Origin: Thraustochytrium sp. TN22 | Lineage: Eukaryota > Sar > Bigyra > Thraustochytrida > Thraustochytriidae | Length of the DNA stretch: 64,000 nt | Direction of reading: 5' to 3' | Assembly: GCA_013306675.1 (NCBI GenBank) | Contig: JABLUY010000029.1 | Span: forward strand, 62,001-126,000 | Shown here: piece after piece, positions 836 to 63,504 of the stretch | How positions within the stretch are numbered: position 1 is the stretch's first letter | Layout of the letters: the number at the start of each line of letters is the position of its first letter | The notes under the pieces: model-generated | Database searches by the model: none | What the model was told of the DNA's origin: nothing | What the model saw: only the letters and a program-made list of their open reading frames with translations | Program-made: the position numbers and the translations under genes

Positions 836-1837
836 TTAGGACTGCGAGTCGCTGGCTGAAGCAGCCGGCTCCGCGCCCTCGCGGCCTTGGATGACTTCCA
901 TCATGCGTGCCACCTCGTCCTGGATTCGGGCCAGCTCCGAGACGGCCGCGCTAGGGTCCGAGCTACTGAGCATGGAGGCCAGGTTGGAGGGATCCAGGCC
1001 CAGATTGAGTGCAAAGGCGGTCGGATCCTGCTCCGGCGGCTGTTTCCTGGCGGTCGCACCATCCGGCGTGCTGTTGGCGGCCTGGCTGGCGGCTGCGGCG
1101 ACAAGGGGAGACCCGTTGACTGACATGATGCTCTCTCCGCGGCGCATGGGACGGGCGGCCTTGCTCCCAGCGACCACGGTGGCCGGTGTCTGAAGGACCG
1201 ACGGGTCAAACCGAGGCGTGGCGAGGTCGTCTGTAAGCCCGCTGCCGCCACTACCGCTGCCGGCGGTCGGGCGTAGCGGCGTGGCCAGCGGCGGGCCGGG
1301 CCTTTGGTGCTTAAGCGCGCTGTTGTGTGCCCCAAGCGCCGCGCGGTTGCGCAGGCCGAGCGCCGTGGCCGGCGCTGCGCCGCCAAAGCGGGGATTTTGC
1401 GTCTTGGATGCCTTGCGCATGGACATGCTTCGCTGCACCGCCTTGGCGGACTGCAGGACCACCTTGCTCGGTGTCAACGTGCCACTCGACGAAACGAGCC
1501 CGGTCGACTCGAGCACGCGCTTGCGGTCCTGCTCCAGCACTGAGCTGATCTGGCCGCGGTGCTTCTCGCAGAACTCGCGCACGCTCATGGCGCGGATGCT
1601 CTTGGGCAGCTTGATGATCTCGCTGCTGTACGCGTTGCGGACCGCGTCCACGCGCCGCTGCGCCTCGAACTCAATCAGCCGGCACCGGCTCTGCAGTTCC
1701 ACCTCCAGGTCCTCCAGGAACCCGGTCGTGTCCATCTCATCCATCACCACCTTCTTCTTCAGCGGCGCCGTGCCGGCCTTCTTGCGCAGCTCCGCGCGCT
1801 TCTTCTTCATGGCCGCCGTCGTGTCGGGCCGCGCCAT
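836..1837 (-). CDS. Borealin-like chromosomal passenger complex subunit
   Basis: Borealin joins Survivin and INCENP in the three-helix bundle that targets Aurora B to centromeres and the midzone. The N-terminal block FLEDLEVELQSRCRLIEFEAQ, followed by IKLPKSIRAMSVREFCEKH, matches the Borealin/Nbl1 N-terminal helices (pattern KLPKxxRxM and EF). The rest is disordered and basic, with many TP/SP sites and the motif RRGESIMSVNGSPL, typical of Borealin C-terminal regions, then a short acidic helix. I chose the ATG giving MARPDTT (333 aa). The frame stays open upstream for 45 codons, but that part is Ala/Arg-rich and looks like GC-rich leader; MKKKR a few codons later is an alternative start. Length is close to animal Borealins. 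Confidence 0.72.
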   Translation of the reverse strand: MARPDTTAAMKKKRAELRKKAGTAPLKKKVVMDEMDTTGFLEDLEVELQSRCRLIEFEAQRRVDAVRNAYSSEIIKLPKSIRAMSVREFCEKHRGQISSVLEQDRKRVLESTGLVSSSGTLTPSKVVLQSAKAVQRSMSMRKASKTQNPRFGGAAPATALGLRNRAALGAHNSALKHQRPGPPLATPLRPTAGSGSGGSGLTDDLATPRFDPSVLQTPATVVAGSKAARPMRRGESIMSVNGSPLVAAAASQAANSTPDGATARKQPPEQDPTAFALNLGLDPSNLASMLSSSDPSAAVSELARIQDEVARMMEVIQGREGAEPAASASDSQS

Positions 1838-9097: not shown

Positions 9098-10446
9098 AGT
9101 CCGAGCCGGCGTGCTGTGGCCTGGCGACCCTGGTCATCTGCCTGAACACCTTCATGATCGACCCGTGCCAGCTGTTCCGGCCGCCGTGGCGCTTCTTCAC
9201 CGAGACAATGCTGTCCGGGTGCGCCTCGCTGGACGAGGTCAAGGAGCGCGGCATCACGCTGCCGGAGCTCATGTGCCTGGCGCAGTGCAACGGTGCACGC
9301 GTGACGCGCTTTGAGCGCGGCGGCGGCACCCTCGAAGGCTTTCGTGAGCAGGTGCGCGCGAGTACGATGCAGGACTCTCGCGAGCACATCCTCGTGGTCT
9401 CGTATTCGCGCAAGGAGCTCAAGCAGAGCGGCGACGGCCACTACACGGTCATTGGCGGCTACTGCGAGGAGGAGGACTGCGCGCTCATTATGGACACGGC
9501 CCGCTTCAAGTATGGCCCGCACTGGGTGCGCATCGAGGACTTGCACCGTGCCATGCGACGGCCCGACCCGGAGACCAACCGTCCACGCGGCTACTTCACC
9601 CTCGTGCCCTCCCGGCTCAGCTGCTCCACGCTCTTCATGTTCCGCACCCACGTGGACGACTGGCAGACGCTGGTCAGCTTCTTCGAGGAGCTCGGCCGGC
9701 GAGACAAGGAGGGCCAGGCGCTCCTGTGTGGCGGCAGCTGCGGCAGCTGCTGCAACAACGACGACGGCGACGACGACGATGGCGACATCAGCGATGTTGC
9801 CAAGGAGGCTGACGTAGATGCCAGCGTCGACGGCGACAGGACGAGCTCGTATGACGGCGACGCGGAGGACCTCGACTCGGAAGGAGGCAGACCTCGCGGA
9901 GAGAGCGCCCTCCTGCGGAGTTCCGTGCGTCGCGCCGTGCAGTGCTTCTTTAAGTGCATGCCAGACAAGGTCTCAGAGGCCCTTACGACCTACCAGGACG
10001 AGTTCAGCTTTCCGGACTTGCCCTTTCGCCCGCGCGACCACGAGTACAAGCTACTCAATATTAGGGCCGAAGTGGCGGACCTGCCTCTCTTCGCGGTCGT
10101 CGATGAGGTGCTGCACGGCCTCGGCAAGGACGACCAGAACCGCATGCTTTCCACCATCCTCCTTCTTGCGTTCCCAGAGCCGAGCAAATTCTGCGCCGCC
10201 ACAGGCGTCACCTTCGAGGAGATCCAGGACCTCTCGGACGCTTCGCCGCTGCTGCGCAAGGAGGTCAACACGCTGCGCCGCCAGATGTCCCTCATGATGG
10301 ACGCGGCACAGAACTTGCCGCCCATACTCGAGGACGAAGACACCGAGGTTACAGCCTGCAACGGGCCCAACGCGGCCTGTAATTCTGGTGCCCAAGGAGG
10401 GACAGGCTGCAGCAAGCATGGCCGCGGTTTCCCGAGGCCCTTTTAG
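9098..10446 (+). CDS. PCS: Phytochelatin synthase, exon 2 (catalytic core and tail)
   Basis: With exon 1 this makes a 529 aa enzyme. The predicted triad is Cys87 (in EPACCGLATL), His195 (in GDGHYTVIGGY) and Asp213 (in ALIMDTARFKY). The His-to-Asp spacing of 18 equals that of Arabidopsis PCS1 (Cys56, His162, Asp180). The block KERGITLPELMCLAQCNGA is also typical. After about residue 265 the protein becomes acidic and Cys-containing (CGGSCGSCCNN), like the variable metal-sensing C-terminal half of plant enzymes. It ends with further Cys (ACNGPNAACNS). It probably acts in the cytosol in cadmium, copper and zinc tolerance. All catalytic residues are present, so the gene looks functional if the large intron is spliced. 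Confidence 0.9.
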
Positions 10447-52466: not shown

Positions 52467-55426
52467 ATGACCGCGCCAACGCTGCTCTACATGGGAGCCG
52501 CCGCGGCGGGTGGCGGCACGGCGGCCGAGGTGACGCACCGGGTGAAACCGCAGGGCGCCAAGAGCATGGACCTGAGCGCGGACCAGCAGCTGCTGGCCAT
52601 GGGCATGAACTCGAGCCTGACGCTGGTCCGCGTCATGAATCGCTATCAGACGCTGCGTGACGAAGAGCCGCACCTGGTGCGCGACACCAAGCACGGGGCC
52701 GGAGGCCAACTCACCAAGGTGAAATTCAACCCAACGCTGCCCCGCGCGCACCAGCTCGCCACCATGAGCTCGAGCGGAGCGGTGGGCATCTGGGACGTGA
52801 GGCACTACTCGAGCGGGTTCTGGGAGCCCGAGAACGTCCTGAACCACAACTCCGCAGTGAACTGCATAGCATGGCACTACAGCGATCCGGAGACGCTGCT
52901 GACCGGGTCCAAGGGGTCAATCAAGTTCTGGGATCTGCGCGTGCGCTCGGGCAAGCCCAACTTTGAGATCAACCCGCAGCGCGGCACGGTGCGCGACCTG
53001 CAGTTCCGCAAGGAGGAGGGCAGCGTGCATTTTGCGGTTGCTCTCGAGGACAATGGAGTCGTGCAGATCTGGGACGTTCGCCACAACTCTGAGAAGGACA
53101 AGCCGGTCCTGGAGTACAAGAACGTGCACACCAAGACGTACACGGTGGACTGGAATCCGGAGCTGAGCCATCTGCTGGCGAGCGGCGGCGAGGACGGCTG
53201 GATCAACGTGTGGGACACCAACAAGGAGAAAAAGGCGCCGCGGGCGCAGATGCAACGTGCGCCGGCGCAGCAAGACGATCTGCTGGACGGGCCGCCGTCG
53301 CGCAGCTCGCTGGGGCACGCGCGAATCAGCAGCACTGGCAGCGACGCCCCGTTTCCCGGCGGCGGCCCGGGTTCGGTGGCCTCATCTGTGCAGACCACGA
53401 GCGATGTCAGGCGGCTGAAACGGCGCGCGATGCAGTCCGCTTTGTACCGCATCAAGACCCCGGATCGTACGGTGATGCGCATCAAGTGGCGGCCGCAGCA
53501 CCCGTACCAGCTGGCGGCGAGCTCGCTCAAGAGCCCGACAATCGACATTTGGAACGTGCTGGAGCCTGATGTGCCCGTGGCCACGATCGCGCCCGTCGAG
53601 CGATCGCAGCACGCGACTGACTTCCTCTGGCTGGACCCGTTTTTGGATCCCAACGACGTCCTGAGCTCCTCCTTGTACCAGTCGCAGTGGTGGCCTACAA
53701 AGGAAGACAACGACGACGAGGATGACTTCGATGGAGTCTTGGAGCGCGAGGAGGACGTGGAGCGCTTGCGCGCGCTTGCGCGGCCGGACGGCTCGCACCG
53801 TGCCGGAAGTGGGCGCGCAGTCCTGCCGCAGCAGAGCCGACACGGGTTGGACCCACCCACGATCGCGACGGGCCCGGGCCGGCTTGCCTCGCCATTGCTC
53901 GAGGCGCGGCCGCCCAGCCCTGCGCCCTCTGTGCCGGATTCGATCATTTCGCACCGCGCAGCGAACACCGTGGCCCTGGGCGCCCCCGAGCAGGAGGCCT
54001 TCAAGCGACTGCAGCAGCGCTTCCGCAAATACAGGCACCGGCACCCGTCGGACGAGGTGGCCAAGCACAGTTGGTGCTGTCTGCTGGCGCTGTCGCCGGG
54101 CAACACCGCGAGCGTGCTCGCGCTTCGCAGCGTGCAGCGCGCGGTAAAGCCTCTGCAAAAGTACAAGTCCGCGGCGCTGAGCCTCTCCGTCAAGGCGAGG
54201 CTCGCTGCGCACCACGAACATATCCCGTTCATGCGCGTGTCGGGCGCTTTGCTGGTGAATCATGCGCTGCAACCGGAGCAACTACCGCCGCGGCCAGCCA
54301 ACCTGCTGCGCATCTTTGGCGCCCCGGCCATGCGCAAGCGCGAGGGTGCGCCCCAGCCCTCCTTTGCGGACTCCATCCTCGGTTTCGACGCGGAGCAGTT
54401 CGTTGCGCTGGCGCAGGGGTACAAGACGCCGAGCACTCTACTTGAAAGCGACGAGGGCATCGCGCTCTTGGAGATGCACCAGCGGCGTCATCGAGGCCTC
54501 CTGAACTACTCCATGGACGGCCGTGCGCGCAGCGGTGCGGGTCAAGCCACTGCGAGCCCGCCGGGCCGCAGAAGACGGCGCAACTCTGATGCCTCGGTGT
54601 CAGGCGCGGATGGCCCGCAGCGGCGAATGCCGCAGCCGTACGGCAGGCAGATTCCGGACGAGGAAAACGCCGTGGCCCAAAAGGAGCTGCTGAATCAACA
54701 GGCCATTCTGACGGCGTGCTGTGAGCACAACGCCAAGGTCGCCCTGGCGGCTGGCGCCTACGTCCAGGCGCAGGTGTGGCGCCTCGTCATGCTGCTGCAC
54801 GCGCCCCAGAGCGTACATATGGAGGTGGAGGACCGTCTAGGCCCGGCCCTCGCGCTGCCGCCGCCGTTTTCATCATTGCGACACCGCGCGATGAGCTATG
54901 CGAGCCAGTCCAGCGGGGACTCGAGCACGGTGCTCCTGGGCGGCCTCCACCGGCAGCACACCGGGGAGACAAGTCTAGGCGGCGCAAGCGGGAGCAGCAA
55001 GGAGCGCAGTTTTGATGCATCATCGGATGTCCACTTGGAAGGATCGGCAAGCGTGCCGCTCAACAGCTCGCTCCGCAGCACAATGCACCCGGGCGGTGGC
55101 GGCGTGTTCGGGTCGACGTCGACGCCTTCGGCGGTGCGTGATCCCCATCCTCAAGGGCCTAAACTCAACATCGGGGCTTCCCCGTCCACCGCGCCGCGCA
55201 AGCACGTCCGCACTCACAGCGCCAACAGTGCGCAGCTGGCCACGACTGGTACGGGCCAGGATGTCCTCACACCGGGGAGCTCGTCCACGTGGGGACCGAG
55301 TCGTGCCCGAACCATGTCGAATGCCTCCCTCGGGGTCTTGGACGCCGGATTGGACGCGGTTGGTGTGGTGCGCATGCAGCAGGAACTTGACATGCACCCA
55401 GCGCAAGCGCAGAACGCACAGGGCGT

Positions 55427-55474
<48 letters not shown>

Positions 55475-57488
55475 TCAACAGCAGCACCAGCACCAGCACC
55501 AGCAGCAGCTTGCACAGACTGTCAATGTGGATCAGCAGCCTCAGCACTTGGACAAAGAGCTACTGCAAGGCTCCCATGACCCTACGAGGGGAGTACCAAG
55601 CAAAAGAAACAAGAGCAGGCTCGACAGCAAGGAGCACGGGGCGGGGCATGAGCAGAAGCAAGAGCGTATCCAAGTGGCGGTGGACACGCCTTCTGAAGAG
55701 CGCGAGCGGGAAAAGCACACCCAGCTCCTGGAGCAGCCGCAACAGGCCGCCGAGGCGGGGACGGAGGCGACAGCGACGCACGAGAACCCCACGGGGGGCG
55801 TCGGAGGCATGGATGTGTCAGGCGGAGGCGGCGAGGAGAGCAAGCACATGCACGAGCGCGAGCCGTCGCGTGAGCAGGTCGAGATCGTGCCGGAAGAGCC
55901 AAGGATGGCGGAGGACGTGCAATTTGAAGAACCATTCAGCATCGCGGCGGCGCGAACTCTTCTGTGGCGGCCGGAGAGCATTAACCTCCTGTGCCGTTTG
56001 AACGTGGCGGTGCCGCTGGACGAGTCCCAGTTCGCACTCTCGTCCAAGATCCTGGAGGGCGACGTGCAGGAGCTGTCGGACGCGCTGGAGCTGGCCAAGC
56101 CGCCCATTCTGCCAAGCCCGATGCCCAAAGGCCACCAGAAGATGCGCCGTCTGCACCGCATGCAGCGGCGGCAACGCTTCATTCACTACTACCAGCAAAT
56201 GTACACGACACAGATGCAGGTGCAAGCCGTGGCGCCCGTGCGCGGTCCAGTGGCGGCCGTGCCGCTCTTTGATCCTGCACTGCGCGCGTTGGAGGCAACC
56301 GAGCACAGCCACCGCGGCGAGCGGCGGCAGCGGCGGTCTAGCGGTGACATGAGACAGGGCTCGGCGCCGTCGCAACACCCGGAGGCGAGCACGGGCCAGG
56401 ACCAGGACGTCGCGGAGACCTCTTTGCACCGGCCCAGGCACCAGCACCAGCACCACCAGCACCAGCATCGTCATCGCCACCACCACCGCCACCACCGACA
56501 TCACCATCAATCTGCAGCGGACCGCCTCCCCCCTTCTCACCACCACCACCACGACGGGGGGCAGGCCTCTGAGGACGTGACGTTCCGGCACCCGATGCAC
56601 GAATTTGCCGAATTGGACCTGTACCACAGCGCGCAGGGTGAGCTCGCGCAGGGCGGGCGCACGGCCGGACGCCTGGACGAAGTGGAGGACGAGGACGACC
56701 ACGACGGCGAATCGGACCGCGTGGCTGCAGGCGGCAGTCGCAGACGTCGCGATGAGCGGGAGGAGGCTGGCAACGGCGACGCCGGGCCGGACACGGAGAG
56801 CGAGGGTGGGGTCAGCAACAGCAGCAGATTTGAGGCGCCGCCGCCCCTGCTCAACAGCGTGCCGCCGCTGAGCTGGGTGGGCATGTCGGAGGAGCAGCTC
56901 ATGAATGGCGAGGTCATGCTGTCACCGTTCCAAATCGTGACGCAGAACAAGAGCAAGCTCAAGTCGGAGTTGGTGCACGAGATCTTGGAGCACCATGCCG
57001 ACATCGGCGACGTGCAGACGTGCTCGATGCTGCTGTTGGTGCTGGGTGACCTCCTCGAACCGGCGGTGGGCGAGGTGAGGCGGCGCAAGTGGCTCTGCTC
57101 ATACGTGGACCTGCTGCAACAGCTGCGCGAGTTCTCGGTGGCGGCGCGCGTCATCTCGGCGTGTCAGGACGCGGAGGTGGAGCGGTGCTACCAGATGGAG
57201 AGCATGGTTGCGGAGGGCTGCAGCTTCTGCATGCGGTCGGATCCAACGAACCGCATCACCAAGAAGGAGCACAACTTCCACGGCTTCTGCGGGACGTGCA
57301 AGAATGTGGTGAGTCGATGCGCCATTTGCGAGCAAGCTGTCAAGGGTGTCTTCGTGTGGTGTCAAGTCTGCGGCCACGCCGGCCATCTCGACCACATGAC
57401 GGAGTGGTTTCGCACTGAGTCGACCTGCCCGACCGGCTGTGGCTGCACATGCAAGTTGGACTCGCGCGGAAGCGAAGAGGATGCCTGA
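52467..57488 (+). CDS. WDR24: WDR24/Sea2 subunit of GATOR2 (SEA) complex
   Basis: 1,673 aa in one exon, about twice human WDR24 (790). The N-terminal WD40 propeller has IWDVRHYSSGFWEPENVL, LTGSKGSIKFWDLRVRSGKP, VVQIWDVRHNSEKDK and ASGGEDGWINVWDTNKEK. The C-terminal zinc module (about 1585-1670) reads CSFCMRSDP, CGTCKNVVSRCAICEQAVKG, FVWCQVCGHAGHLDHMTEWF and CPTGCGCTC. The VWCQVCxHxGHLxHxxxW and CPxGCGxxC patterns are diagnostic for WDR24. GATOR2 activates TORC1 at the lysosome or vacuole in response to amino acids. The middle is swollen by a poly-Gln run, a (HQ/HH)n run and acidic and Ser-rich disorder. The alpha-solenoid segment (ILEHHADIGDVQTCSMLLLV) lies just before the zinc module. Confidence 0.93.
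55428..55509 (+). repeat. (CAG)n polyglutamine tract in WDR24
   Basis: About 19 Gln codons, nearly pure CAG, followed by His/Gln alternation. Expected to vary between strains. Confidence 0.92.
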
Positions 57489-57523
57489 GAGGTACGGGCC
57501 CTCGCAGGGCACTGCGACACACT

Positions 57524-57640
57524 GCAATGCGATGCGATGCGATGCGATGCGATGCGATGCGATGCGATGCGATGCGATGCGATGCAATGCGATGCGATGC
57601 GATGCGATGCGATGCGATGCGACGCGATGCAATGCAATGT
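57524..57640. repeat. (GATGC)n pentanucleotide array
   Basis: About 23 GATGC units with a few GCAATGC variants, in the 276 bp between the convergent WDR24 and eS12 genes. A shorter (GCTGT)n run follows at about 57698-57727. The five-base unit leaves all frames open, which creates spurious open frames. Confidence 0.93.
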
Positions 57641-57764: not shown

Positions 57765-58202
57765 TTAGGCGTTCTTGAGGTAGTCGAGCAGGTAGTTGAG
57801 CGCAGGAGACTCCTCCCCGAAGTCGGTGATGACGGCGCACGAGCAGCCGACCACGCGGGTAGCCGCGCCCTCGGCGTCGATCTTGCACAGACCGCACCAC
57901 TGGCCGAGCTCCTTGCGGTCGGTGACCTTGATGAGCGGCACGTCGTGCTCGGCGCAGAGCGCCACAATAAGCTTCTTGTACGCCTCCTCCTCGCAGTTCT
58001 CCGCGAGGCAGCACAGGCGCGCGGCCTTGCTGTCGAGCGCCTTGCAGCACTCGTGCAGGCCGCGGCGGAGCCCATCGTTGTACATGGACTTCTTCAGCAC
58101 CGCCTGCAGCGCCGTCATGGGCGTCAGGTCCTCCACCGGCACATCCTCCACCGGCGTCGTCTCCTGGACCTCCTCGCCCATCTGCACGTCCTCGTCGGCC
58201 AT
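57765..58202 (-). CDS. RPS12: 40S ribosomal protein eS12
   Basis: 145 aa, the usual length (human 132). It starts [14 protein letters not shown]; the N-terminal extension is acidic, as in other eukaryotes. The L7Ae-like core is clear: [96 protein letters not shown]. It sits at the beak of the small subunit. A GGCA-type run lies about 100 bp before the ATG on the coding strand. Confidence 0.96.
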
Positions 58203-58928: not shown

Positions 58929-61900
58929 TCAGGGCATGCAGCGCCGCAGGAAGCGCGCGCTGCGGCGCAGCGACTCGTAACGCATGATGAACATCTCGAC
59001 GCGGCGCAAGAGCAGGCGCGCAGCGGCCTCTGAGCGCTCCGTGGTGGCGGCCGCCTGCAGGCGAGAGAGTTCTGCCTGCAAGTGCGTCTGCTGCTGCCGC
59101 AGGTCGTCAAGCTCGTCGTCGCGCAGCTCCTGAATGGGCGTCGACAGCACCGAGGCCGTCTCGCGCATCTTGGCCTCGATGCTGCGGATCGTCCTGGACT
59201 GACGTCGCACCTGGCTGCGCAAGCCGGCCTCCTCCTGCCGCAGGCCCTCCAGCTTCTCGACAGCAGGCGTCGCGGCGGTCCCGTCCCCGTCGGCCTCTCG
59301 GTGGGCCCGCGCCGCAGAAGCCGCGGCCCGGGCACGCCGCAGCTTCCGGGCGCGCTCCCGGTGCTGGCCGCGCAGGGCCGCTAGCTCCTCCGCGAGCTGG
59401 CTCCCAGCCTCCTCCAGCTGCGCCTGCGTCAGCCCGTCGACCGACTCGCCCTCCGCGAGCCGCCCGCGACTGCGCAGCCACGCCGAGGCCGCCTCCGCCC
59501 GGGACGCCGCCTCGCTGCTGGACTCCTGCAGGCGCTCTGTGCGGTACTCCACCTCGTCCGCGTGCTGGCTCACCTCCTTGAAGCGCCGTCGCAAGGCCTG
59601 CAGCTCCTCGCGCGTGCGCTCCAGCGCCTTGACGTTGTCTAGGTGCGCCAGGTACGCTTGCTCCTGCTCGCGAAGGCCCAAGTCGCCACTGGACGCCACG
59701 CTCTTTGCGTGCAGGGAGAGCGGCGTGTCAGCGGCCGCGCCGTTCATCCACTCGTCGTCATCATCGTCGTCGTGCGCCAGCGCCATGGGGGAGAAGGCGC
59801 TCGTGGGCGTCGGTTCGCCGCGCCGCATGCTCTTGACACTTGACGGCGGAGGGAAGGGCCCCTGCGCATCGAGAGGCGTCCTCTGCAGCGCGTGACCCGT
59901 CGGGATTACATTGCGTCTTGCCACGGGATTCTCCTCCTCGTGCTCCGCAGGTGCAGGAGGCGAATCATGGCGCGGCGGCGCGATGTCCCCGCTCGCGCCC
60001 CCCGCATCCAGAGGCGTCCTCTGCAGCGCGCGACCCGTCGGAATTACATTGCGCCCTGTGACGGGCTTCGCCTCCGCGTGCTGCGCAGGCGCAGGAGGCG
60101 AATCGCGGCGCGGCGGCGCGGTGTCCCCGCTTACGCCCTCCGCATCCAGAGGCGTCCGCGCAAGACCCTTCCCCGCAGGGATGGCGTTCCGCATTGCGCG
60201 CAATGAGGGATCGTGCGTCTGCTCGCCCTCGGTCTCCGAGCTCGCTTCCTGTACCAGGTTCCTTTCATGCGAGACGGAGATGCCAGCCTGAGCTCGTGCC
60301 GCATCTAGAGGCGTCCTTACGAGCCCGGTGCCGGTCGGGATGGCGTTGCGGTTTGCCGCTTGGCCGTCGAAGCCTGGAAGCGTCTGCTCGATGGCGTTAT
60401 TGCTCGTTTCCTGCGACTTGACTACTTCGAGCGGCGTTCTGGCGAGCCCGGTGCCAGTCGGGATGGCGTTGCGGGCCGCCTTGTGGTCGCCGTCGACTGT
60501 TCGCGTCTGCTCAATTTCGTTGCTCGTTTCCTGCGTGTTGGTCACCTCGAGCGGCGTCCGGGGCAGCCCGGCTCCGGTGGGGATCGCATTGCGGATTGCC
60601 TTTGTGTCCTCGAGGCTTGTCGCTGGGCCGCCGAGTCCCGACGCCCGCGCCTTGGGCGCGTCGAACGGCGTCCTGGCAAGCCCGTTTCCTGAAGGCATGT
60701 CGTCACGGGGTGCCTCTTGCCCAGCGAGGCCTGCCCTATGCTCCATTGCGGCGTTGCTCGACTCTTGCGTCTTGGTTCCGTCGAGCGGTGTCCTGACGAG
60801 CCCAGTGCCATTCGGGATGGCGTTGCGAAGAGTTTTGGCCTCAGCCACTTCTTCTGCATTCACCTTCACTTCCTTGTTGGGGGGGGCGTTCAGAGGCGTC
60901 CTGGCAAGGCCGGTGCCAGAGGGAATGGCGTTGCGGAGCGCCTTAGGGTCGAACTCCTGGTTGGCTTCCCGCTCCTGGACCTTTGGCGCATCCACTGGCG
61001 TCCTGGCAAGGCCAGAGCCAGAAGGAATGACGTTGCGGAGCGCCTTGGACGCAATCTCCGCGTCGGCTTCCTGCTTCTGCTGCTCCTGCGCCTTTGGTAC
61101 ATCCGCCGGCGTCCTGGCAAGACCGGCGCCAGAGGGAATGGCGTTGCGGAGCGCTTTGGGTTCGAGCGCTCGGTTGGCTTCCCGCTCCTGGACCTTTGGC
61201 GCATCCGCAGGCGTCCTGGCCAGGCCGGTGCCCGAAGGGATGACGTTGCGGAGAGCCTTGGGCACGATATCCATGTCAGCTTCCTGCTCCTGCTGCTCCT
61301 GCGCCTTTGGCACATCGACTGGCCTCCTGGCAAGGCCGGTGCCAGAAGGAATGGTGTTGCGGAGCGCCTTGGGGCCACCTTGAATGGTCTCTTGCCGATC
61401 CAGGGCGCCTCTGCTCATGGGTGCATCCACGGGGGTCCTGGCAAGTGCAGCACCAGAAGGGACCGCGTTGCGCAAGGAGTTGGAGGCCGGCGCGTCGTTA
61501 GCAGCCTGCGACTGCGTTGGCACTGCAGCATCAACGGGCGTCCTGGCGAGTCCAGTGCCTGAAGGGATCACGTTGCGTAGATGTCTTGCCTCCTGCTTGC
61601 CACCCTCGCGGTTTTTAGTTGCTGGTGCCTCGGCGGCCGCGTCCAAGGGCGTCCGAGCGAGCCCGCCCCCGGTAGGAATCGCATTGCGAGTGGAGGCGGC
61701 GGGAGGTGCGGGCGCCTGCACGCGGGTGGCGGTCTCCACTGGCGTCCTTGCGAGGCCACCTCTGGTGGGGATTGCGTTCCGGCCTAGCGCAGCATTCTGG
61801 CTTGAGGCCGCATGAGCGAGCGGCTTCGTTGCGACCGTGTCAGTGCGCACCAAGGGCGTCCTCGGCAGGCCATGGCTGGTGGCGATGCCTTCGACCGGCG

Positions 61901-62249
61901 TCCGCGCGAGGCCGCGTCCGGCTGGAATGGCGTTGCGCTGCAGCGGCGCGGCCGGCGTCTGTGCGGCTGCGGCGGTCGCGTCTGCGCGCGCGCGCTTGAT
62001 GGGCTCGCGTTCCGTGGGAATGGTTCGCTTGACCCCCGGGTTCGCGCCCTGGGCGCCTGCATGATTAAGGCCGAGATCGCGCAGCGGCTTGCGGCCTGGC
62101 AGCACAATCTCGGAGCACTCCTCCCAGCCCGTGCTCTTCGCCTGCGCCGCCCTGCTGCGCTGCTCGAGCGCCGTCGCCGTCGTTTTCTGCGTCTGGGTCT
62201 CCTCCCCCTGCGCCGGCCTCGCCCGCTGCACGGGCGTCCTCGCGAGCAT
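58929..62249 (-). CDS. Repeat protein: 18 RNxIPxGxGLARTPLD motifs plus C-terminal coiled coil
   Basis: 1,106 aa from MLARTPVQRARPAQ. After about 100 residues a 16-residue motif appears 18 times, spaced 31-52 residues apart. Its consensus is R-N-x-[IV]-P-[ST]-G-x-[GA]-L-[AQ]-R-T-P-[LVA]-[DE]. The spacers are disordered and Gln/Glu/Lys/Ala-rich. A partial motif (HGLPRTPLV) and the N-terminal LARTPVQ echo it. The last 300 residues form coiled coil (REQEQAYLAHLDNVKALERT onward), broken by Gly/Thr linkers, and end in a basic tail (YESLRRSARFLRRCMP). Nearly every motif has a proline-directed Thr. I know no family with this motif. A multivalent cytoskeletal or spindle scaffold regulated by phosphorylation is a guess. 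Confidence 0.78.
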   Translation of the reverse strand: MLARTPVQRARPAQGEETQTQKTTATALEQRSRAAQAKSTGWEECSEIVLPGRKPLRDLGLNHAGAQGANPGVKRTIPTEREPIKRARADATAAAAQTPAAPLQRNAIPAGRGLARTPVEGIATSHGLPRTPLVRTDTVATKPLAHAASSQNAALGRNAIPTRGGLARTPVETATRVQAPAPPAASTRNAIPTGGGLARTPLDAAAEAPATKNREGGKQEARHLRNVIPSGTGLARTPVDAAVPTQSQAANDAPASNSLRNAVPSGAALARTPVDAPMSRGALDRQETIQGGPKALRNTIPSGTGLARRPVDVPKAQEQQEQEADMDIVPKALRNVIPSGTGLARTPADAPKVQEREANRALEPKALRNAIPSGAGLARTPADVPKAQEQQKQEADAEIASKALRNVIPSGSGLARTPVDAPKVQEREANQEFDPKALRNAIPSGTGLARTPLNAPPNKEVKVNAEEVAEAKTLRNAIPNGTGLVRTPLDGTKTQESSNAAMEHRAGLAGQEAPRDDMPSGNGLARTPFDAPKARASGLGGPATSLEDTKAIRNAIPTGAGLPRTPLEVTNTQETSNEIEQTRTVDGDHKAARNAIPTGTGLARTPLEVVKSQETSNNAIEQTLPGFDGQAANRNAIPTGTGLVRTPLDAARAQAGISVSHERNLVQEASSETEGEQTHDPSLRAMRNAIPAGKGLARTPLDAEGVSGDTAPPRRDSPPAPAQHAEAKPVTGRNVIPTGRALQRTPLDAGGASGDIAPPRHDSPPAPAEHEEENPVARRNVIPTGHALQRTPLDAQGPFPPPSSVKSMRRGEPTPTSAFSPMALAHDDDDDDEWMNGAAADTPLSLHAKSVASSGDLGLREQEQAYLAHLDNVKALERTREELQALRRRFKEVSQHADEVEYRTERLQESSSEAASRAEAASAWLRSRGRLAEGESVDGLTQAQLEEAGSQLAEELAALRGQHRERARKLRRARAAASAARAHREADGDGTAATPAVEKLEGLRQEEAGLRSQVRRQSRTIRSIEAKMRETASVLSTPIQELRDDELDDLRQQQTHLQAELSRLQAAATTERSEAAARLLLRRVEMFIMRYESLRRSARFLRRCMP
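59865..61937 (-). repeat. Array of 18 degenerate coding repeats (unit about 93-156 bp)
   Basis: Each unit contains the 48 bp encoding RNxIPxGxGLARTPxD and a variable spacer. The motif part is conserved at protein level and less so at DNA level. Units 6-7 and 8-9, counted from the N-terminus, form a two-unit duplication with matching spacers (VPKAQEQQxQEAD, then APKVQEREAN). Confidence 0.88.
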
Positions 62250-62649: not shown

Positions 62650-63018
62650 ATGAAGCTCCTCACGCACAACCTGCTCAAGTGCAACGTCAAGGGCGTCAAG
62701 AACGGGTACCCGCTCAAGATCGAGGCGCGCGAGAAGGAGGTGCGCGAGACGGAGATGAACGCGGTCTTTTTGCGCAACGTGCTGCCCAAGCTGGACTGGG
62801 CGGTGCTGCGCGCGGCATCGGCGCAGCTCGGCGTGGAGGGTCTGCCCGAGGCCGTGACGCCCGAGCTCCTGGAGCAGGATGAATTCTTGCAGAAGCTGCA
62901 CCACGCGCTGCTTGAGGTCGTCGTGGTGGAGGGCGCGCTGGTATGCCCGGAGTCCGGTCGCAAGTTCCCCATCACCAACAGCATCCCCAACATGCTTCTC
63001 AACGAGGATGAAGTGTAA
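62650..63018 (+). CDS. TRM112: Trm112 methyltransferase activator
   Basis: 122 aa, full length (human TRMT112 has 125). MKLLTHNLLKCNVKGVKNGY opens the family's strand. EMNAVFLRNVLPKLDWAVLR and EFLQKLHHALLEVVVVEGAL follow, then CPESGRKFPITNSIPNMLLN. Only the second zinc-side CPxSGRxFPI is kept; the first Cys pair of the fungal zinc knuckle is absent here, as in animals. Trm112 stabilises several SAM-dependent methyltransferases acting on tRNA (Trm9/Alkbh8, Trm11), 18S rRNA (Bud23) and release factor eRF1 (Mtq2). It is head-to-head with the TP-repeat gene. Confidence 0.95.
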   Translation: MKLLTHNLLKCNVKGVKNGYPLKIEAREKEVRETEMNAVFLRNVLPKLDWAVLRAASAQLGVEGLPEAVTPELLEQDEFLQKLHHALLEVVVVEGALVCPESGRKFPITNSIPNMLLNEDEV

Positions 63019-63504
63019 GATGTTCGAGTCAGAGATGGAAAAGAGAGAGTGAGGGAGACATGAGACGTGACGCAACGGAGGGCATGCGCGAGCGAGCGAG
63101 CGAGCGAGAGAGAGAAAAAGAGAGAGCACGCGGGCCCAAGCAAATGGGCAAAGGAACACTTGCCTCTCTCTCCCAAGCTCTGGCTGGCCATTTAGAGGGA
63201 TCCTGCCCCCCGTATCTCCCGCTCACCGAATGCGAGTTCCGCTCTCTTTGGCGCCGAGAATGCGAGTTCCGCTCTTTTTGGCGCCGAGAACGCGAGTTCC
63301 GCTCTCTTTGGTGGTGCTCCATCGCGCTCCATCGCGCTCCTTCTTTTGATTTCCGTGCCCGCGTGTTTGGGCTCTTCCTACATTGTGCAGATAAAGAAAA
63401 AATGGCGTTTGCAAAGGCAAGCCGTAGTCCACCACGATACACCGACGGCGACTGGAAAGCTTGAAGCCATGACACGGTGGTAAAGGTACACAGAGGGCCA
63501 GACA
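63019..63504. other. Convergent spacer with 30 bp tandem repeat
   Basis: 486 bp. It holds a (GAGC)n run at about 63089-63113 and a 30 bp tandem repeat at 63231-63312. No gene was seen. Confidence 0.6.
63231..63312. repeat. 30 bp tandem repeat, 2.7 copies
   Basis: Units at 63231-63260, 63261-63290 and 63291-63312, starting TGCGAGTTCCGCTCT and differing at one or two positions. They lie downstream of Trm112. Confidence 0.92.

Follow-up and report, generated by a model that had tools for sequence, protein, structure and literature searches.

What is encoded by an open reading frame in which one short peptide recurs many times ahead of a predicted coiled coil, and what might such a protein do? 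This question is raised by P0001, an intact frame in the window, i.e., the whole stretch of 64,000 nucleotides analyzed here (Table 1). Pfam places a gene for ribosomal protein eS12 (57765-58190, minus strand) on one side of it and one for Trm112 (62650-63018, plus strand) on the other, neighbors that mark the genome as eukaryotic. The GC content of the window averages about 65% (60-75% across 2-kb blocks), and at codon position 3 the value for P0001 (0.78; 0.90 in the coil) is equal to that of the neighboring genes or somewhat lower. Six-frame searches of the 37.9-Mb assembly (453 contigs) were performed with the coil and the array separately and matched only P0001 itself, both among the 38 candidates scored for the coil (E ≤ 0.001) and among the nine scored for the array (E ≤ 1), indicating a single-copy gene among the candidates scored.

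The window also encodes a protein with a phytochelatin synthase domain (9154-10446, plus strand; PF05023, E 1.4e-47) and a protein of 1673 residues that combines WD40 repeats with RING_16 at its C-terminus (52467-57488, plus strand; zinc_ribbon_16 just below the cut-off), which we take to resemble a GATOR2-type subunit. A further protein (836-1837, minus strand) contains a Nbl1/Borealin N-terminal domain (PF10444, E 3.8e-12), by name that of a chromosomal passenger complex subunit, and has several Thr-Pro in its tail. The pentanucleotide TGCGA is repeated about 23 times at 57523-57639, adjoining eS12, and a 30-bp tandem repeat of 2.8 copies is located downstream of Trm112 (63228-63311).

Table 1. 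Features of P0001, with positions in the window.
Feature	Position	Strand	Basis
P0001, whole intact ORF, 1106 aa	58929..62249	-	ORF translation, without internal stop
Motif array, 18 full copies of 16 residues each (residues 105-794), in a chain predicted to be disordered	59868..61937	-	motif alignment and AlphaFold2
N-terminal half copy LARTPV, residues 2-7	62229..62246	-	sequence
Half copy GLPRTPL, residues 127-133	61851..61871	-	sequence
D-box-like RKPLRDLGLN, residues 53-62	62064..62093	-	one of four regular-expression matches in P0001, suggestive only
Bipartite-NLS-like KRTIPTEREPIKRAR, residues 74-88	61986..62030	-	consensus match, suggestive only
213-nt unit with two motifs, duplicated in tandem (2.3 copies)	60895..61374	-	repeat detection
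138-nt unit with one motif, duplicated in tandem (2.1 copies)	59865..60157	-	repeat detection
Acidic DDDDDDEW (residues 827-834), after the array and before the coil	59748..59771	-	sequence
Conserved C-terminal helical domain/coiled coil, residues 859-1104	58938..59675	-	AlphaFold2 and conservation in P0002
Thr994-Pro995, where two predicted helices meet; corresponds to T511-P512 of P0002	59265..59270	-	alignment and AlphaFold2
Thr1037-Pro1038 (SVLSTPxQEL), in a stretch of low confidence that separates predicted helices; corresponds to T554-P555 of P0002	59136..59141	-	alignment and AlphaFold2

A reading of the sequence alone (the sequence-only reading) had described a 16-residue motif held almost constant across 18 copies, and this description was borne out by the alignment of 18 full copies with the consensus R-N-x-I-P-x-G-x-G-L-x-R-T-P-x-D. 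R1, P5, L10, R12, and P14 are present in every copy of P0001, and N2 and G7 in 17 of 18. Thr-Pro was counted in 17 copies rather than the 16 reported before; the copy at residues 297-312 has Arg in place of T13. Neighboring copies are 31-53 residues apart, with 12 of the 17 spacings falling between 34 and 41. Of the 18 copies, 16 fit a strict motif pattern, which did not occur in any of 2000 residue shuffles of P0001 and yielded no match elsewhere in the window in six frames; the looser core [GA]L.RTP was found there twice outside the P0001 gene. The only match of a literature search with literal motif strings was “shRNA IPTG”.

A single relative, P0002, passed among 7989 candidates scored from a collection of 5.8 billion proteins. 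It is a protein of 627 residues from a 2035-base metagenome contig, is probably incomplete at its N-terminus, and shares 45% identity with the C-terminal coiled coil of P0001 over 293 columns, its end lying four residues past that of P0001 in the alignment. P0002 contains three copies of the motif, all with Thr-Pro, and outside motif and coil no convincing similarity between the spacers of the two proteins was found. Across the 21 copies of both proteins, P5, L10, R12, and P14 are invariant, R1, N2, G7, and T13 occur in 20, I4 in 19, and G9 in 18, while 18 copies have Ser or Thr at position 6; altogether, at 12 of the 16 positions a single residue is shared by 14 or more copies. T13 is replaced once, by Arg, and never by Ser, which would fit a reader specific for phospho-Thr or a structural role of this Thr. 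Two further coil searches of protein collections, one of them with length limits that excluded P0002, gave nothing beyond P0002, and scans of viral and prokaryotic contigs gave no confirmed relatives. The family is therefore either narrow or poorly covered by the collections searched. In line with the earlier statement that no named family has this motif, no Pfam-A family, and hence no known Pfam repeat, scored above its curated cut-off: the best match of P0001 was HAMP (13.8 bits, cut-off 25), P0002 had nothing at E ≤ 1, and the coils alone reached at best ANG-1 for P0001 (18.5 bits, E 0.0023, cut-off 28.5) and a sub-threshold Syntaxin_2 match for P0002 (E 0.0055).

The motif had also been assumed to be under selection, with spacers that vary freely. 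When all copies were compared, the motif codons showed a pS of 0.61 and a pN of 0.167 (pN/pS 0.27, bootstrap 0.23-0.33), and the flanking codons, which are mostly non-homologous between copies and were used as a saturated yardstick, a pS of 0.63-0.67 and a pN of 0.56-0.63 (pN/pS 0.88-0.94). Since the silent sites of the motif are nearly as diverged as those of the flanks while the peptide is kept, the peptide is under selection, and neutral evolution of the motif codons does not apply across all copies. The free variation of the spacers was confirmed only in part: most flanks are non-homologous, but the 213-nt and 138-nt tandem units represent recent duplications. Such units would be expected if slippage or unequal exchange enlarged a repeat that is kept for bulk or flexibility, with no docking function, and among recent duplicates only, where the spacers are homologous, the pN/pS of the motif (0.32) does not differ significantly from that of the spacer (0.52; Fisher p = 0.13 for the types of difference and 0.26 for nonsynonymous sites). 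Nevertheless, the all-copy ratios and the preservation of the motif in P0002 make this explanation highly improbable.

The C-terminal coiled coil proposed earlier is supported by the predicted structure. AlphaFold2, run on a two-sequence alignment of P0001 and P0002, predicted helices at residues 859-927, 942-987, 994-1040, 1044-1068, and 1071-1104. Within this region the mean pLDDT of 10-residue blocks is 50-93 and reaches at least 70 in 19 of the 25 blocks; the coil modeled alone has a mean of 67.7. By comparison, block means are 29-46 for residues 1-110 and mostly 27-45 for the array, in which one block of 69 corresponds to a short predicted helix (387-405). Heptad periodicity was evaluated in four helical stretches, where 4, 231, 30, and 52 of 1000 shuffles reached the observed power; it is thus clear in the first, absent in the second, and suggestive in the other two. 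A fold comparison of the predicted structure gave no significant match, only generic helical pairs. As in P0001, a run of Asp precedes the coil of P0002.

Some short stretches might hint at the cellular setting. The NLS-like stretch of P0001 agrees with the commonly used bipartite consensus, and P0002 has one NLS-like match only, at its extreme C-terminus. A stretch matching the usual D-box consensus is also present; as this regular expression matches P0001 four times, a single match carries little weight. A KEN tripeptide is found in P0002 (residue 226) and none in P0001. Together, such NLS-like and degron-like stretches would fit a nuclear protein that is degraded in the cell cycle, yet each is common by chance, and a nuclear, cell-cycle setting of P0001 is a guess from sequence.

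Taken together, the motif array of P0001 is real, under selection, and undescribed, and the coiled-coil family to which this protein belongs is an orphan. The explanation to which we give somewhat better than even chances is that of a coiled-coil scaffold whose 18 peptides, carried on a disordered chain, dock one partner by avidity. The conserved coiled coil would oligomerize or anchor the protein, and about 800 residues of presumably disordered chain would extend from it, bearing the 18 copies of R-N-x-I-P-[ST]-G-x-G-L-x-R-T-P. If every copy binds the same partner domain, one oligomer could gather tens of partner molecules by avidity. A proline-directed kinase acting at Thr-Pro may control this docking, which makes Thr-Pro a plausible phospho-switch. 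This scaffold is supported by the conservation of motif positions whose silent sites are diverged and by the joint preservation of motif and coil in P0002. The low pLDDT predicted for the array next to values of up to 93 at the C-terminus is consistent with it, and so may be the Thr-Pro of 20 out of 21 copies together with the two Thr-Pro of the coil region that both sequences share. Counted against it were the result for [ST]P apart from the motif copies (10 occurrences against 7.5 expected, i.e., no clear enrichment), heptads that are clear in one of four stretches, the non-significant test on duplicates only, and a family with a single known relative that is probably truncated at its N-terminus. 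The acidic residue at +3, which is atypical of CDK sites, was also counted against it. A conserved helical domain joined to a disordered chain with many copies of one selected peptide is how an avidity scaffold is built.

Several known peptide readers would each account for part of the motif. Ligands of BRCT1/2 of TOPBP1/Rad4 are described to carry a hydrophobic residue at -3, several of them at sites of proline-directed kinases (PMC6175577). The motif would fit this rule, since each of the 21 copies has Leu at -3 and 20 of them have Thr-Pro, and P0001 might be a phospho-Thr array read by such a BRCT domain in replication initiation or checkpoint control. However, BRCT1 ligands tend to have a hydrophobic residue at -4, a position that all 21 copies fill with Gly or Ala, and the equally conserved first half R-N-x-I-P-x-G is left unexplained; we regard this as very unlikely. 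It is the first half that would speak for a microtubule plus-end scaffold of the EB1 type, with N-x-I-P-[ST] as a variant of SxIP: EB proteins also bind unconventional peptides, and N-x-I-P-[ST] with its basic neighbor recalls the SLIPTP of MACF (PMC5201023). Yet Asn replaces the Ser/Thr of SxIP in 20 of 21 copies, [ST]x[IL]P is absent from P0001 and occurs in P0002 twice, outside its motifs, and here the C-terminal half of the motif finds no explanation, which leaves this possibility extremely doubtful.

Two further alternatives start from the layout of the protein. The motifs might be closure motifs that thread into a Hop1-like or Mad2-like HORMA domain, the coil building an axis-like assembly as in Red1/SYCP2/ASY3. 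The succession of disordered chain, peptide, and C-terminal coil matches that of axis core proteins, and R1 and R12 bracket the motif similar to the basic residues between which the hydrophobic centers of plant closure motifs lie (PMC6349405). The core G-L-A-R resembles the brown-algal closure motif (K/R)C(S/G)LA(K/R), closure motifs being degenerate (PMC12678776). Moreover, the genome contains two HORMA-domain genes, read as Mad2-like and Hop1-like; in the latter (L004, 819-2296, minus strand) the HORMA domain (PF02301) spans two open frames and is followed by a frame ending HTPNATPKRRRR. This C-terminal frame does not contain the motif, however: its best score is -14.8, as compared to 40.6-52.3 for true copies, and 363 of 500 shuffles are as good. 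The four-residue likeness is within chance, and even when any residue is allowed in place of Cys, the full brown-algal pattern occurs a single time in P0001 and never in P0002. Red1 orthologs are described with N-terminal ARM-like and PH domains (PMC12678776), for which P0001 showed no match (no Pfam match at E ≤ 1). The chance of this being a closure-motif array is judged to be very slim. Finally, P0001 could fill the slot of KNL1/Spc105 with a diverged checkpoint-docking array, in the manner of KNL1 MELT arrays as the sequence-only reading had put it. The layout is alike, Nuf2 was found in the genome, and the Spc7 and Knl1_RWD_C models gave sub-threshold matches only, in ORFs without MELT-like or motif sequences; a MELT model found nothing in the genome, but its controls gave no match either. 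KNL1 diverges fast, and such models may miss it. As Nuf2 is present while no KNL1 passed the cut-off of the two models, this reading is kept, at low odds. The KNL1/Spc105 array consists of MELT motifs, M-[ED]-[LIVM]-T (PMC3779320), and its C-terminus of tandem RWD domains (PMC11189301). The tetrapeptide M[ED][LIVM][TS], on the other hand, has no match in the 1106 residues of P0001 or the 627 of the probably incomplete P0002, and Pfam gave no RWD at E ≤ 1 in either protein or in four 3' minus-strand frames, although a very diverged RWD could escape this search. P0002, moreover, ends at almost the same residue after the coil. The analogy in layout thus stands, the likeness to MELT and RWD does not, and we consider a KNL1 replacement the least likely of these readings.

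For the multivalent scaffold, the motif peptide itself, e.g., RNAIPTGTGLARTPLD in plain and phosphorylated form, is a ready-made bait that should retrieve the partner. Should this partner turn out to act in a checkpoint, in the axis, or in replication, a new docking code would be at hand where two KNL1 models found no KNL1. That the array represents a phospho-Thr docking code not described before, recognized by a dedicated reader and employed for chromosome segregation or replication control in this protist lineage in place of KNL1 MELT repeats or the axis-core closure motif, appears unlikely to us. If the partner is mundane, P0001 would still define a new family of orphan scaffolds and be a natural example of how tandem duplication can raise valency without loss of the motif.

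Compared with known systems, P0001 shares with the EB1-binding SxIP proteins the core x-I-P-[ST] and a basic neighbor and departs from them in the Asn. With the TOPBP1/Rad4 ligands RAD9, Treslin, and Sld3 it has the hydrophobic -3 in common and, with several of them, Thr/Ser-Pro, whereas P0001 offers 18 putative sites, each with a second conserved half. The axis core proteins share a C-terminal coiled coil, which is predicted in P0001 and conserved in P0002, but Ectocarpus RED1 has six predicted closure motifs, one of them validated (PMC12678776), as opposed to 18 copies of the candidate peptide. KNL1 is, by analogy, the closest of the compared systems in layout, although its array differs from the P0001 unit, which is 16 residues long and has Pro after Thr. 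P0001 is thus new in sequence, and its build is like that of known motif-array scaffolds.
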